From Armatimonadota bacterium (GTDB lineage: Bacteria; Armatimonadota; UBA5829; DTJY01), in contig JAGONM010000002.1 of the NCBI GenBank assembly GCA_017993055.1, positions 132,821 to 182,898 of the forward strand: DNA of 50,078 nt. Direction: 5' to 3'. Positions 7,249 to 30,747 of this stretch are shown piece by piece (position 1 is the stretch's first letter; each line of letters starts with the position of its first letter). Position numbers and translations under genes: made by a program. The notes under the pieces were generated by a model. It was given only the letters and a program-made list of their open reading frames with translations. It did no database searches and was not told the origin of the DNA.

Positions 7249-7899
7249 ATGGATACGGCGATTCTGAAGGTGGATGCTCAACACCCTGCTCCCGAGGCCA
7301 TTCGATTTGCCGCCGAGGCGATCCGGCGTGGTGAACTCGTCGCTTTCCCGACCGAGACCGTCTATGGACTCGCCGCCGATGCGCTCAACCCCGTCGCCGT
7401 CGCCCGTGTCTGCGAAGTCAAGGGACGTCCTGCAGACAACCCGCTTCCCGTCCAGGTCGCGGGCGTTGACAGGCTGTGGGGAGTCGCCGCCGAGATTCCT
7501 GAGATCGCCTTCGAACTCGCTCGTCGGTTCATGCCCGGACCGCTTACCATAGTCCTTAGATCTCGATCCGAGTTGCCCGAATCTGTCACTGCAGGTACTG
7601 GCACGGTCGGCATCCGAGTTCCAGCCCATCCCGTCGCGCTGGCGTTGCTCAGGGCGGCCCGAACTCCCATCGTTGCCCCGAGCGCGAACCCGTCGGGCCA
7701 ACCGCCGCCGCTCAACGCGGAGGAAGTGCACGCGTATCTGGGAGGCCGCATAGGGTGCATTCTCGATGCCGGCGAATCGCCTCTTGGAGTTGCGTCGACC
7801 GTCATTGACCTGACTGCCGATTCGCCGAGGATTCTGCGCGATGGCTCGCTCAGTCGAGATGAACTGCTGGAGTTCCTGGGTCAGGCTCGGGAGCGCTGA
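7249..7899 (+). CDS. tsaC: L-threonylcarbamoyladenylate synthase (Sua5/YrdC/YwlC family)
   Basis: The enzyme makes threonylcarbamoyl-AMP from threonine, bicarbonate and ATP, the first step of t6A37 tRNA modification. The YrdC core is visible from FPTETVYGLAADA (about residues 36-48) through KGRPADNPLPV to APSANPSG (about 144-151). At 216 residues it lacks the extra Sua5 C-terminal domain. The ATG at 7249 has GGAGG (7237-7241) seven bases upstream. The partner subunit TsaB is encoded at 24256, so two t6A genes are in this window. Its last 19 nt overlap holB tail to tail. Confidence 0.96.
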   Translation: MDTAILKVDAQHPAPEAIRFAAEAIRRGELVAFPTETVYGLAADALNPVAVARVCEVKGRPADNPLPVQVAGVDRLWGVAAEIPEIAFELARRFMPGPLTIVLRSRSELPESVTAGTGTVGIRVPAHPVALALLRAARTPIVAPSANPSGQPPPLNAEEVHAYLGGRIGCILDAGESPLGVASTVIDLTADSPRILRDGSLSRDELLEFLGQARER

Positions 7900-25053: not shown

Positions 25054-28000
25054 CTACGGGGCTACGCGTCGCTTCCACGGCCAGTCGTCGGACATATCGG
25101 ATACCCCTCGCTGTATCAGCACTGGAGGGCAAGGTTTCCCCGACGCATCGGTGTACAGTAGAATTTCTGAAGGGCTGATGATCGCGGACCGACCGTCGGG
25201 TAGAGTGGTGCGTGTAGCACCGTGCACGTCTATCTCGAACGACCGTGCCGTGAGCCGTTGGATCGGCTGGTCGAGTCGCAGTACTAGCCGTGGCTGCTCA
25301 GGAAGTGGCTCGCCGATATCCTTGAGTCCCCAGGTCATACCGTCGTCAGATACCGAGACAACCATCACCCCGTTCAGCTCGACGGTGGAGCCGACGGGTC
25401 TTGACAGCACAGTGTCGATTTCGCTCCAGAGAGCCCGCTGGGAATCAGCCGGCGAAGTCACGTATACATCATCGAGAGCTAGAAGTTCGAAACTCTGGGA
25501 CTGCCCTGATGCTTGTGACCTGTATGTCAGGTAGATTGCCGTAGGAGTTACCTGAGCCCATCCGTACTGGTTCTGACCGGCAAAGTCGCTGAGTACAGTG
25601 ATGTAGTCGCCGACCACCAGGGCGGTGGTTGCTGCCATGGAAGTGCAGGCATACATGTGAGCCGGATCTGTCTCAGATACCCAGACCTCACTGGCTGACG
25701 TGTACTCGACGCACTGATTCACTAGGCGCACGGCCGCGCCGACAGGCACATCGGAATTGTCGGGCCACACGAGCCTCGTGGAAGCGCCGTACGCTCTGGG
25801 GTACTGGCGACGGAGTACGATACCCGAAGCGTCCTCCACCCTGAGCATCGGGCAAGAGCCCTCGTTGACCTCATACAGGCTGCTGACGCCGGTAACGATC
25901 GCATAATCACCAACACCCGGTGCGGAAGCCAGACCCGGGCAGTATACACGAAGCCCCCTGGCCTGATTCGGTGCCTGCGGGATCGGCGCTCCATCGAGAG
26001 GAACCTGTATCGGCTCATAGACGCCACTGGCATCTACGAGGCTGCACCCGTCGTCAACATAGGCATAGCCGGAGTCATCGCACGTTATCCGACCGCACGC
26101 CGTGACCAGCAAGCCTGTGTTGTACACGCCGTTCGCCGAAGAGACACCCGTGATGCCCTCCGGCGAGATTCCGCCGATCGATCTAGTCGCCATCGCGAGT
26201 GCACGGGGCATCTCTGCGGGCCCCATATCCCATATCGGATACGTTGCCTCGATATACCGTTCGCCGCCAACTGTGTGCAGAACGCCCCCGATAGCGACCT
26301 CCCTACCTCTGGATACCGACTTCGATGCCTGCACCATAATCCCCGAGGCGCGATCGTAGTCCTGCACATAGAACCCACCGTCATTTGCAGGTGACGTCCC
26401 CGATGTCACGGGGACGCCTACGAGAAACACATCAGTGCCGTCGAGTGCATCGGACAGCGGAGAAACCGAGGTGATGCCGAGTGCGTTGTTCGCCAACACT
26501 ACCTTGCGGGGCGGACTGAACGAGATGGAGTGCTCACTGTAATAGTATGCAGCCGCCTGGAGCTCATATGCACCGTTGTCGGCTACCGAGGGTGCTATGG
26601 CGCACTGATATGGAGCGATGGTCGCGGTCCCTGCCAGTATCGGACTGCCCTGTCCCAACAACCAGAACTCGACCTTCGGCGGCAAGCAGTCAGGCTGCGC
26701 CTGAACCGGCGTTGACTCGGATACGATAGCGTACTCAGCGTCAGGCGCGGTGATCAAGACCGACGGCAGGCTGGTATTGTCGAGCGTAACAGACTTGGAA
26801 ATCCTGGCGCTGCCGCCGGCTCGTTCATCCTGATAGACCACAACCTCGATGGTGTAACCGCCATCGGGATAGACCGGATTGCCATCCGACAACTCGGGGG
26901 AGTTCCACCGTGCCTCGTAAGGCGCGATGGTGTCGGTACCTATGAGCCTCCGCGTGCTCGTCGCACTGTCCGTGACGCAAACCTCAACGCGGACAATGCT
27001 GCCGAGGTCGGGTGTGACCGAGATCGCCAGCGGGACTATGCCCTTGACGGTATCTCCTTCATTGGGTGTCGGTTGCATAGTAATGACAGATAGATAGTCA
27101 GCGAAGGGCGACATAAGCGGGTCACCAATTATCAGAGCCTTGTACGCCAGGCGGTTTGTTGCCATGTATGCCGACTCAGCCCAGGAATACCCCTTGGCAT
27201 ATCTAGCAAGCGTCGTCGCGCCATCCACGTAACCGCCACCGGGCTCGGAGACCGCCGCGGTAATGCCGGTGCAACCGCCGCGGATATACTCCGATGCTTT
27301 CTGTCTGCCGAGCAGCAGCGGCAGCCTCAAACCCTGGCCCTGCGACATGAGGATGTGCAGGTCCCGAGATCCTACGCAGTCGAAATACCGCAGCAGCGGT
27401 TCGTTATCATGATATCCATTGTCGTCAGTAGGGAAGAACACGCGTACCCGGAAACCTTCGCTCTGTTGTGGCCACTCTATCGTTTGGTCGCTCAGGTCTA
27501 TCTCGGCCACTCCGCCAGCCGGTACGTGCGTCTCCACGTCGCACAACTGCCCGTTGCGCATCCAGCGGAGCGGACTGTCGTCGTGCTTGTCGAATATGCC
27601 GACTCGGTAGCTCGGGAGCGGGACGACGTGGCGCACGCCGCCAAACAGGTATATCCCCGCGTCTACCCGCAGCACAGGCGTGTTCAGGGTCTCGACGTTA
27701 TCATCGTCCCAGAATGCGAACAAGCCGGTCCGCAGGCTCGAACCTCCGTATGATTCCTGGATCACCGATATCGCGCCCGGTTTCCAGTTGAAATAGGGAC
27801 GACCCCACTCGGTACTCTCCAGAATGTCGGTATCATGCATGCCGTAGCTGCTGTACGCCATGACGCCGAGTTGATCCGCGAAGGTCTTGACATAGCACGT
27901 GCTCGCGTCGCAGTCATGGATGATGAGATCCGGTTCCAGGATGGGATCAAGCCACGAGCAGTCGGTGCCCGAGTGGTCAACGGGCAGGTAATCGCAGGTC

Positions 28001-28698
28001 CACGGCAAGTCGTGAACAAACCTGCCTCGCTGACCAGCCGAGTCGTGTGCCCGGTCGATCATGTCCATCACGTCCTGAGGAATCTGCCCATCGTAGCCTG
28101 TGACGGTCACCAGCGGGTCTGTGTATCCATCCAGACGGCAGACAAGGTAGCGCATCTTGTAGGTATCCTCGCCGCAGGGGATGCTGTTGTCCGGGGAAGC
28201 CCGGAAGGATGCGAAGTCAATGTCCTTGCCAAGATAGGGATTTGTGGCGCCTGCGAAGGTCAACGGGCCCAGGTCCGGGTCCTCGTTGAACAGCAGGGTA
28301 AGGAATGAGTCCACCGATTTCTGATCATCCTGAACGGGCGCATTGATCTTGAACGGTATGCCGTAGCACATCACCAGGCACTGGATCGGGTCGTTCGCCG
28401 GATCCTCCGGGTCCACACCGATCTGGTTGACGAGGGCGTTCCGAATATCCTCAGCAAGCTCGGCGTACTCGGAGGGGGTTGCACTCTCGACCCTCGCAGT
28501 CTGGACACGGATCAGATTCGACGATGGTATGCCTGCCTGCGCGCAGTAGTATTCACCAACAGCAGTGGACTTACCGCCCAGAAAGGAGTCCGTGTTCACT
28601 ATCACTGCTACGTTGTGCGGAGCGATGCCAGCTTCCAGGGAACATGAGAGAGCCAGCAGCACTGCGAGCACAACAATCGCGTTGGGCAAGCGTCTCAT
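25054..28698 (-). CDS. TIGR03790 family secreted protein, 1214 aa, with C-terminal OB-like modules
   Basis: After a signal peptide the first 520 residues match the TIGR03790 family: GIAPHNVAVIVNTDS, GEYYCAQAGIPSSNLIRVQT, LVMCYGIPFKINAPVQ, YLVCRLDGYTDP and IIGDPLMSPFADYLSV. This uncharacterised family is known to occur only in genomes with exosortase. Residues 530-735 look like Ig-like/Big repeats (ending VVVYQDERAGG, AAAYYYSEH). From about 745 there are at least two OB-like modules with the signature YVQDYDRASGIMVQ / YVDDGCSLVDASG / LRVEDASGI and a degenerate last one near 1100. There is no C-terminal anchor. Its ATG overlaps the stop of a PEP-CTERM gene (ATGA), so the two are translated together. 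A truncated paralogue lies at 29441. Confidence 0.88.
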   Translation of the reverse strand: MRRLPNAIVVLAVLLALSCSLEAGIAPHNVAVIVNTDSFLGGKSTAVGEYYCAQAGIPSSNLIRVQTARVESATPSEYAELAEDIRNALVNQIGVDPEDPANDPIQCLVMCYGIPFKINAPVQDDQKSVDSFLTLLFNEDPDLGPLTFAGATNPYLGKDIDFASFRASPDNSIPCGEDTYKMRYLVCRLDGYTDPLVTVTGYDGQIPQDVMDMIDRAHDSAGQRGRFVHDLPWTCDYLPVDHSGTDCSWLDPILEPDLIIHDCDASTCYVKTFADQLGVMAYSSYGMHDTDILESTEWGRPYFNWKPGAISVIQESYGGSSLRTGLFAFWDDDNVETLNTPVLRVDAGIYLFGGVRHVVPLPSYRVGIFDKHDDSPLRWMRNGQLCDVETHVPAGGVAEIDLSDQTIEWPQQSEGFRVRVFFPTDDNGYHDNEPLLRYFDCVGSRDLHILMSQGQGLRLPLLLGRQKASEYIRGGCTGITAAVSEPGGGYVDGATTLARYAKGYSWAESAYMATNRLAYKALIIGDPLMSPFADYLSVITMQPTPNEGDTVKGIVPLAISVTPDLGSIVRVEVCVTDSATSTRRLIGTDTIAPYEARWNSPELSDGNPVYPDGGYTIEVVVYQDERAGGSARISKSVTLDNTSLPSVLITAPDAEYAIVSESTPVQAQPDCLPPKVEFWLLGQGSPILAGTATIAPYQCAIAPSVADNGAYELQAAAYYYSEHSISFSPPRKVVLANNALGITSVSPLSDALDGTDVFLVGVPVTSGTSPANDGGFYVQDYDRASGIMVQASKSVSRGREVAIGGVLHTVGGERYIEATYPIWDMGPAEMPRALAMATRSIGGISPEGITGVSSANGVYNTGLLVTACGRITCDDSGYAYVDDGCSLVDASGVYEPIQVPLDGAPIPQAPNQARGLRVYCPGLASAPGVGDYAIVTGVSSLYEVNEGSCPMLRVEDASGIVLRRQYPRAYGASTRLVWPDNSDVPVGAAVRLVNQCVEYTSASEVWVSETDPAHMYACTSMAATTALVVGDYITVLSDFAGQNQYGWAQVTPTAIYLTYRSQASGQSQSFELLALDDVYVTSPADSQRALWSEIDTVLSRPVGSTVELNGVMVVSVSDDGMTWGLKDIGEPLPEQPRLVLRLDQPIQRLTARSFEIDVHGATRTTLPDGRSAIISPSEILLYTDASGKPCPPVLIQRGVSDMSDDWPWKRRVAP
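28124..28370. repeat. 247-bp near-identical block, copy 1 (inside full-length TIGR03790 gene)
   Basis: Base-by-base comparison with 29460-29706 shows only two differences in 247 positions (a C/G change and a T/C change). Outside the block the two genes diverge quickly: the N-terminal coding parts share roughly half their residues, and the other side is unrelated. Confidence 0.95.
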
Positions 28699-29291
28699 CG
28701 CGGCGTCCTCCTTCTGATGACGCCGGCGGCTATCAGCACTCCGGATGCGAGAGCCAGAAGTCCTGACGGTTCCGGGATGGCAACAAGCCGAAACACAAGG
28801 TCATCGCCCGGTTGAATAGTTGAGCTCAGCCATATTGGTCCGCCACCAACTACTGCTCCGGATTGTAGCTGACTCCACAGCAGTTCGTCGTTCGATCGCC
28901 CCGGCCGGTGTGTATAGATCCTGAGCTGGAGTTTCTGGGCATCATAGTTCGTTGCCCAGCCCAGGTCTATGCTATCATAGTAAGGACCGGAAGATGAGTA
29001 CGTGCCCCAATCCTCGAACAAAGTTCCACTCGCGACGTCAGAGGTTTCAGCTATTGTCACGGTTCGCCCTCGTGAATACCTCTCCGCGACTGTTACCGGG
29101 CCGAACTGGCCGATCGCACTGGTTGCATACCACGGAGACTCCCAGTATTGGTCTGGGTATGCTGATCCCATCAACCACACATAGGCAAACTCAGCATACC
29201 ACCCCTCCTCGAGCTGCACGGCGTGGGATGAGGGTGCGAGGCCGATGGCCATCGTGAAAACCAAAATCAGGACAAGCGCGAACTTCTTCAT
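28695..29291 (-). CDS. PEP-CTERM sorting domain protein (module copy 1)
   Basis: This 198-residue exported protein has a signal peptide (MKKFALVLILVFTMAIGLAPSSHA), a beta-rich middle with WYA-F and LFEDWGTY motifs, and a canonical PEP-CTERM tail: AIPEPSGLLALASGVLIAAGVIRRR, that is PEP, a transmembrane helix and a basic end. Such proteins are cut and re-attached by exosortase, which is not encoded here. The function of the middle domain is unknown. It overlaps the TIGR03790 gene by 4 nt and is paralogous to the gene at 30040. Its own consensus promoter lies upstream. Confidence 0.9.
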   Translation of the reverse strand: MKKFALVLILVFTMAIGLAPSSHAVQLEEGWYAEFAYVWLMGSAYPDQYWESPWYATSAIGQFGPVTVAERYSRGRTVTIAETSDVASGTLFEDWGTYSSSGPYYDSIDLGWATNYDAQKLQLRIYTHRPGRSNDELLWSQLQSGAVVGGGPIWLSSTIQPGDDLVFRLVAIPEPSGLLALASGVLIAAGVIRRRTPR

Positions 29292-29376
29292 CGTCGGCGC
29301 TCCTCTCCAGGATTCGACTGTGTTGAAAAACGCTCCCGGCGATGAGGCTGCCGGAAATACCGGGTGAAGCTATTTT

Positions 29377-29405
29377 ATTATAGCTGACGGCTTGCTTGCC
29401 GTCAA
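29377..29405 (-). promoter_or_regulatory. Promoter with embedded palindrome, PEP-CTERM/TIGR03790 module 1
   Basis: Minus strand: TTGACG (29405-29400), 17-bp spacer, perfect TATAAT (29382-29377). The 7-bp inverted repeat TGACGGC-TTGCTT-GCCGTCA (29385-29404) begins in the -35 box and fills the spacer, the usual position of a repressor operator. Confidence 0.75.
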
Positions 29406-29440
29406 CGATAGCCGGCGAAAACAGGTAAATCTACCGGTAT

Positions 29441-30052
29441 TCAGGCCGGGTCGTCGCCATATCCATCCAGACGGCAGACAAGGTAGCGCATCTTGTAGGT
29501 ATCGTCGCCGCAGGGGATGCTGTTGTCCGGGGAAGCCCGGAAGGATGCGAAGTCAATGTCCTTGCCAAGATAGGGATTTGTGGCGCCTGCGAAGGTCAAC
29601 GGGCCCAGGTCCGGGTCCTCGTTGAACAGCAGGGTAAGGAATGAGTCCACCGATTTCTGATCATCCTGAACGGGCGCATTGATCTTGAACGGTACGCCGT
29701 AGCACAGAACCAGCGCCTGGATCGGGTCACTGGCAGGATCGTCCGGGTCCACGCCCAATTGGGTCACGAGCTTCGCGCGGATCTGGGCTGCGAGCGCCTG
29801 ATATGTTGCAGCCGGGACATATTCCTCTTTGTCCGAGTAGACTTCGATAATATTGCCTACCGGAATACCTCTCTGGGCACTATAGTAATAGCCTACCGCC
29901 TGAGACATCGTTATCAGGTCTTCGGGATCAGCGTTGAGATTTGGGTTCGTGTTGACGATTACTGCTATATTGTGCGGCGCAAGACCCGAGGAGGCAGTAG
30001 AGCACAGCGCAATAAGGAATGCGCTGGCTAGGCATATCGTTATTCTCTGCAT
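29441..30052 (-). CDS. Truncated TIGR03790-like protein (203 aa)
   Basis: It has a signal peptide (RITICLASAFLIALCSTASSG) and the same order of N-terminal motifs as the 1214-residue neighbour: GLAPHNIAVIVNTNP, YYYSAQRGIPVGNIIEV, LVLCYGVPFKINAPVQ, then YLVCRLDGYGDDPA and a stop. Only about a third of the TIGR03790 domain remains, lacking the later GDPLMSPFA region, so it is probably non-functional or a remnant. Residues about 116-197 are encoded by the 247-bp block that is nearly identical to the full-length gene, whereas the first 115 residues are much more divergent. The ATG at 30052 overlaps the upstream PEP-CTERM gene by 13 nt. Confidence 0.8.
   Translation of the reverse strand: MQRITICLASAFLIALCSTASSGLAPHNIAVIVNTNPNLNADPEDLITMSQAVGYYYSAQRGIPVGNIIEVYSDKEEYVPAATYQALAAQIRAKLVTQLGVDPDDPASDPIQALVLCYGVPFKINAPVQDDQKSVDSFLTLLFNEDPDLGPLTFAGATNPYLGKDIDFASFRASPDNSIPCGDDTYKMRYLVCRLDGYGDDPA
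29460..29706. repeat. 247-bp near-identical block, copy 2 (inside truncated TIGR03790 gene)
   Basis: Partner of 28124-28370 in direct orientation, 1336 bp apart. Its left end coincides with the point where the truncated gene loses homology, so the truncation and the recombination boundary are the same. Confidence 0.95.
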
Positions 30053-30660
30053 GACCTGTTCCTTCTTGCCACTCCGACGGCTAAGATGCTAGTCATGAAC
30101 AACAGACTGATCAGTCCAGGGCGTTCCGGCACAGCCGTGACACGGAAGGCAATACCGTCACCAGGCAGAAGGTTCCCCGGTACATTGATCTGACCTGGAC
30201 CCAGCGCATGACCGGATTGCGTCTGGCTCCAGAGTAGCTCGGCCGGCCCCCCCGTCCTTGTACGCCATATCTGCACTTGCATTCTGCCGGCATCATACGA
30301 CGTTTCACAGCTGAACCGCACCTGCTGGTAGTAGGGTGCACTGAAGGCGAAAGCCCCAGAATCCTCGAAGAGAACTCCGGGGCCAACGTCGACGTTTTCC
30401 GCAATCTGAACTCTGCGTCCGAAACCATATACCGGATAGGATTCCTCCACACGTACTGGCCCGGTCGACACGAGCGCACTCGTCGGATACCAACCGGTCA
30501 GCCATTCCTCCTCATGGTCACCGTTCCACACAGAGGTATACAAGGTTACGAAGTCAAAAGTCGCATACCACCCTTGTCGAAGCTGCACGGCATCGGACGA
30601 GCCTGCGAGGCCCATCGCCATGATGGAAGCCAAGATCAGAACCAGCGTGAACTTCTGCAT
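30040..30660 (-). CDS. PEP-CTERM-like protein with degenerate sorting signal (module copy 2)
   Basis: This 206-residue paralogue of the 28695 protein shares its signal peptide style (MQKFTLVLILASIMAMGLAGSSDA), VQL-xGWYA-F, LFEDSGAF, and ELLWSQTQSG blocks. The C-terminal tail reads AVPERPGLISLLFMTSILAVGVARRN, so the PEP motif is PER while the hydrophobic helix and basic end are kept. Exosortase recognition may be lost or relaxed. It is followed, with a 13-nt overlap, by the truncated TIGR03790 gene, mirroring the intact module. A promoter is present upstream. Confidence 0.82.
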   Translation of the reverse strand: MQKFTLVLILASIMAMGLAGSSDAVQLRQGWYATFDFVTLYTSVWNGDHEEEWLTGWYPTSALVSTGPVRVEESYPVYGFGRRVQIAENVDVGPGVLFEDSGAFAFSAPYYQQVRFSCETSYDAGRMQVQIWRTRTGGPAELLWSQTQSGHALGPGQINVPGNLLPGDGIAFRVTAVPERPGLISLLFMTSILAVGVARRNRSCRE

Positions 30661-30719: not shown

Positions 30720-30747
30720 ATTATCGCGCATTTGTGTGAGTTGGCAA
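30720..30747 (-). promoter_or_regulatory. Promoter of PEP-CTERM/TIGR03790 module 2
   Basis: Minus strand: TTGCCA (30747-30742), 16-bp spacer, GATAAT (30725-30720). CTTGCCA (30714-30720) and TGGCAAG (30742-30748) also form an inverted repeat that spans the promoter core. The leader to the ATG at 30660 is about 50 nt. Confidence 0.6.

Follow-up and report, generated by a model that had tools for sequence, protein, structure and literature searches.

A recent copying event probably explains a near-identical block in two diverged TIGR03790 genes of tandem PEP-CTERM cassettes in Armatimonadota

Intrachromosomal gene conversion between bacterial paralogues has been described, for example, for the class-I release factor genes (PMC4530459). 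In Salmonella, main and orphan Rhs genes share a 522-bp stretch at 95% identity and recombine to give a chimera (PMC3967940), and antigenic variation from silent cassettes is described for vlsE of Borrelia (PMC2632889) and the pilin of Neisseria (PMC4023411). Here, we describe a locus in a 50,078-nucleotide stretch of DNA (hereafter the window) from an Armatimonadota bacterium, in which a full-length TIGR03790 gene and a truncated relative share a short stretch that is almost identical at the DNA level.

A two-gene cassette, encoding a PEP-CTERM-type protein followed by a TIGR03790 protein, is present twice at this locus, head to tail and both times on the minus strand. In both cassettes the start of the TIGR03790 gene overlaps the end of the PEP-CTERM gene, and the two genes are translationally coupled. 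The duplicated unit is the whole PEP-CTERM plus TIGR03790 cassette, not TIGR03790 alone. The downstream cassette consists of PEP-A (28695..29291, minus strand), a 198-aa PEP-CTERM-type protein ending in PEPSGLLALASGVLIAAGVIRRRTPR, which is joined by an ATGA overlap to TIGR-A (25054..28698, minus strand), a full-length protein of 1214 aa with a signal peptide, the TIGR03790 domain, a Big_7 Ig-like domain (PF17957, aa 544-607) and a long tail. With 81.6 bits against TIGR03790.1, TIGR-A exceeds the curated cut-off of 67 and belongs to the family. The upstream cassette consists of PEP-B (30040..30660, minus strand; 206 aa), which overlaps the start of its partner TIGR-B (29441..30052, minus strand), a shortened paralogue of 203 aa. 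TIGR-B scores 53.3 bits, below the same cut-off, and its residues 49-168 cover only profile positions 13-131 of 316 (the first 40%); by cut-off and domain test it is a truncated relative of the family rather than a full member. PEP-A and PEP-B are 46-48% identical in amino acid sequence. The tripartite tail expected of PEP-CTERM proteins is visible by eye in PEP-A, whose C-terminus scores under the cut-offs of the corresponding models (14.9 bits versus 16 for TIGR02595, 14.4 versus 20.7 for PF07589). PEP-B matched neither of these two models and gave only a very weak LEVG/PEP-CTERM match. An exosortase is encoded in the same genome (PF09721, 186 bits, contig C14).

Each cassette is preceded by a promoter-like site. 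The one ahead of PEP-A (29405-29377, minus strand), found by a promoter scan, reads TTGACG-17-TATAAT and matches the consensus at 11 of 12 positions, while the one ahead of PEP-B (30720..30747, minus strand) is a consensus match only, at 10 of 12. Within the spacer of the sigma-70-like PEP-A site lies an inverted repeat, TGACGGC-AAGCAA-GCCGTCA, which is possibly an operator. The PEP-A site sits in a 168-nt spacer (29292..29459, minus strand) that starts at the point where TIGR-B is truncated and leads to PEP-A. This spacer matches the leader of PEP-B in its last ~28 nt only, and the genome holds no second copy of it such as a mobile element or other repeat would leave.

An earlier note on this DNA had pointed to a 247-bp block shared by the two TIGR03790 genes at 245 of 247 positions, with the copies 1336 bp apart, and comparison at base level bears this out. 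The copy in TIGR-A (28124..28370, minus strand) spans codons 110-192, and the copy in TIGR-B (29460..29706, minus strand) is in the same frame, its left end being the truncation point, beyond which the gene ends in GYGDDPA-stop. The only mismatches, at 28168 (GAG/GAC, Glu/Asp) and 28359 (ATA/GTA, Ile/Val), both replace an amino acid, and the exact runs inside the block are 44 and 190 nt long. No further copy that could have served as a donor was found in the 3.72-Mb, 82-contig assembly. Identity extends to silent sites, as had been claimed: when the count is restricted to codons whose amino acid is shared by the two copies, none of 75 differs silently in the block, as against 27 of 39 in the N-terminal part upstream (Fisher p = 3.5e-17) and 46 of 89 in the PEP-A/PEP-B pair. 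The tract is thus silently identical inside and strongly diverged at silent sites outside, as expected of a gene conversion tract.

The two sides of the block differ, largely in the way that had been described. Upstream, the genes agree at only 50% of positions in their N-terminal parts, in DNA as well as in protein (54 of 109 aa), and beyond the truncation edge there is no alignable homology: in the ~160 nt past this edge, the Smith-Waterman score against TIGR-A was reached by 54% of shuffles. A remnant of a deleted TIGR03790 3' end in the spacer was rejected on the same ground. The claim that identity gives way abruptly holds at the truncation edge, with which one end of the block does coincide, but not at the other edge, where the change is graded over about 50 bp. 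This edge zone (28371..28423, minus strand) encodes GVDPEDPANDPIQCLVMCYG and is of intermediate divergence; codons 92-113 of TIGR-A show ~79% DNA identity to their counterparts, and 5 of 17 codons differ silently. Its silent rate is distinct from those of both neighboring zones (p = 0.008 and 1e-4) for a zone of only 22 codons, and the N-terminal, edge and block zones of the pair all differ significantly from one another in silent sites. The silent rates of 0/75, 5/17, 27/39 and 46/89 therefore point to different ages along one gene pair.

The history that we consider fairly probable is an old tandem duplication of the cassette followed by homologous recombination that recently copied ~250 bp from one TIGR03790 gene into the other. 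The cassette would have been duplicated long ago, with the upstream TIGR03790 gene left shortened, and the two heads would then have diverged in place to near saturation, rather than one having been brought in from elsewhere. Recombination, presumably of the RecA type, would recently have copied about 250 bp, starting within or just after the conserved CYG[VI]P motif and running to the end of homology, that is, the truncation. That the copying is recent follows from the silent sites, since selection on the protein cannot equalize these beside a stretch that is nearly saturated. The earlier note had offered conversion or unequal exchange in place of purifying selection; the recent copying stands, and the unequal exchange is not required. 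Since conversion can run no further than the homology does, the coincidence of edge and truncation calls for no extra event, and unequal crossing-over, which was set aside, would have duplicated long flanks, which are absent. Copying probably went from the full-length gene into the truncated one, a direction weakly favored by a single short GC3 comparison, in which the block (0.74) lies nearer to TIGR-A (0.69-0.72) than to the head of TIGR-B (0.61). The graded 5' edge suggests that copying happened more than once, the intermediate zone being the putative trace either of one earlier, longer event or of several events.

A matching arrangement is found in another Armatimonadota MAG (G017, contigs C193, C194 and C84), which belongs to a different family of the same class. 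The order on its contig C193 (L049) is PEP-CTERM gene, truncated TIGR03790 (497 aa), PEP-CTERM gene, full TIGR03790. Here, too, the heads have diverged, with 47% protein identity between the PEP-CTERM proteins, 52% between the TIGR03790 N-termini and silent differences in 30 of 47 codons, and from the same CYGVP motif onward there is a block of about 0.9 kb, mostly at 83-92% DNA identity. This block is older than that of the window. Over its 275-codon core (codons 128-402) dN is 0.043 and dS 0.54, with omega between 0.05 and 0.13 (0.046-0.132). Had one copy been neutral and the other constrained, a far higher ratio would be expected; the truncated copy was therefore under constraint for most of this period, or lost its end late. 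In each genome the two copies are each other's closest relatives, and the two cases therefore look independent; judged by these sequence relationships, the pattern in G017 apparently arose on its own, and recombination that separates head from tail seems to recur in the TIGR03790 family rather than being a one-off.

The chief rival to conversion is displacement of the head, which would explain the layout by one event. A foreign or allelic head, comprising promoter, PEP-A and the TIGR-A N-terminus, would have recombined in at the conserved block and taken over the resident tail, so that the previous head was pushed upstream and orphaned in truncated form and the block was left as a direct repeat. 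The import of one foreign head in a single event would leave a similar footprint. The layout is exactly as such an event predicts: head B and a block are followed by the spacer, then by head A with its own block and the tail, all in frame. The loss of one repeat would give an intact protein of 1220 aa, encoded in a single open frame, with the B head on the TIGR-A tail. In its strong form, the cassette is also patchily distributed, being confined to 7 genomes of the class. G017 provides a further argument, as the full gene of contig C193 and a third cassette on contig C194 have an identical end of exactly 141 nt, which is also the end of the 14.5-kb contig C84 (L049:1-141, L050:1-141 and L077:14408-14548), so that two different heads end in the same 141-mer of a single tail contig. 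When C84 is joined on through this 141-mer, each head is continued by the common tail into a complete open frame (1572 and 1548 aa). However, 141 nt is the k-mer length given in the contig names (k141), and such a graph branch reflects either two strains whose heads differ but whose tail is the same, perhaps as head alleles within a single population, or a long identical duplication; it does not bear directly on the locus in the window. Head displacement further demands a donor that was already mosaic, given the graded edge zone, and the composition of the heads is not clearly foreign (GC 0.54-0.59). We therefore regard it as unlikely and retain conversion after an old duplication as the preferred reading. 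Under either of these explanations, the locus now carries the block as a direct repeat whose copies are in frame.

It is quite improbable that the assembler produced the arrangement, by joining strain variants or two loci or by collapsing or duplicating the block. Such an origin would suit a MAG-like assembly of 82 contigs, an exact repeat run of 190 nt that exceeds common k-mer lengths, and the fact that related genes break assemblies elsewhere. Yet two mismatches distinguish the block copies, none of their four flanks is like another, a 183-kb contig passes through both of them, and the same architecture in the independent, unrelated assembly of G017 makes an artefact less likely. Purifying selection on the block, which does lie in a conserved part of the domain, can be dismissed as the cause of its identity because silent sites are identical as well, both remaining differences are replacements, and protein identity in this region falls to 38-51% when genomes are compared.

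TIGR03790 occurs in 172 of 291 genomes of the phylum, while the close form of the cassette, at high score, is found in only seven, all in the class of the window. A search of the genome contigs with peptide patterns found no direct relative of TIGR-B; an alignment-based search gave five loci, all from relatives in the class. One genome (G026) has a single intact cassette. Family members in two others have been cut short by other means than in the window. In G018 (L055:3093-5111), a TIGR03790 gene stops at 290 codons beside an IS3-type transposase, and the gene preceding it encodes a PEP-CTERM-like tail. In G020, a 170-bp repeat (96%) lies near the end of a shortened TIGR03790 gene and again at the other end of the contig (L079:423-592 and 7480-7649). 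Contigs C55 and C258 of a further genome, G014, were considered as head and tail of one gene and rejected: their ends do not overlap, and they cover overlapping homologous positions with different sequence, as two genes would. Several TIGR03790 proteins (L049, L051 and L052, from contigs C193 and C37 of G017 and contig C10 of the window's own genome) carry an insertion of ~300 aa that interrupts the domain between positions ~130 and 138 of the profile and has the look of a beta-propeller (repeated GWAVG / TxDGGxTW).

We found no paper naming TIGR03790 in the literature searched, and no solved structure for the domain by sequence. A model of the TIGR-A domain (27064-28641, minus strand) has a pTM of 0.69; with a mean pLDDT of 61, it matched the gingipain structures 4ief, 1cvr and 4rbm (RgpB/Kgp) with VIA-align Z scores of 19.3, 18.4 and 16.7, the next match being at 7.9. 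Foldseek returned no match for this model at E <= 0.001. Gingipains carry a GHG motif. TIGR03790 proteins have a conserved site that we take to resemble it, which reads SWGS in most members, and peptidase activity is therefore doubtful. Judged by the structural match, TIGR03790 may represent a family of the caspase/gingipain fold in which the His motif is altered (SWGS), and the gingipain-like model offers a testable idea of its identity. The model of TIGR-B is a coherent, compact N-terminal subdomain (pLDDT 83.7, pTM 0.78), suggesting that TIGR-B may be a folded product, not debris.

Conversion between paralogues is ordinary. The wider interest of the present case is that two distant genomes show it at the same motif, in the unstudied TIGR03790 plus PEP-CTERM family; in both genomes a variable head is set apart from a conserved rest. 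A more ambitious reading, which we hold tentatively and rate as somewhat unlikely, is that the cassette is a modular system for exchanging heads. The PEP-CTERM partner and the TIGR03790 N-terminus would form a swappable head, the conserved start of the remaining domain would be the recombination site, and displaced heads would be kept upstream as truncated open genes that repeat loss could switch back in frame. Two heads joined to one tail are suggested for G017 by its assembly-graph branch, and a role in head switching is possible on this sequence pattern. Were head exchange true, Armatimonadota would have a surface-protein diversification system mirroring polymorphic toxin tips.

How does this locus compare with the systems above? 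Like the PEP-CTERM/exosortase surface proteins (PMC1569441), PEP-A has a tail of the PEP-CTERM kind and an exosortase is present in the genome, but the PEP matches fall below the curated cut-offs and TIGR03790 itself is without such a tail. With vlsE and pilin (PMC2632889, PMC4023411), it shares a truncated copy beside a full copy homogenized by conversion. In contrast to those systems, the locus has no array of silent cassettes but a single truncated copy that possesses a start codon and a promoter-like site, and we see no evidence of high-frequency conversion. The paralogue conversions of PMC4530459 show the same local near-identity, silent sites included, in otherwise diverged paralogues; here, unlike in those cases, copying was probably into a truncated gene, the paralogues belong to complete two-gene cassettes, and the event is read from sequence. 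As in the Rhs system (PMC3967940), a full-length gene lies beside a truncated relative; the shared stretch is 522 bp at 95% identity in Rhs and 247 bp at 99% in the window. Rhs loci differ in that the C-terminal tip varies and is displaced, together with immunity genes, whereas in the present family it is the N-terminal head, along with the PEP-CTERM partner, that varies on a common tail, with no evidence of a toxin or immunity gene at this locus and with head switching only putative. Nonetheless, recombination between the repeats would yield an in-frame chimera here too, and displacement of a head would be the mirror image of the orphan tips in Rhs/CDI loci.
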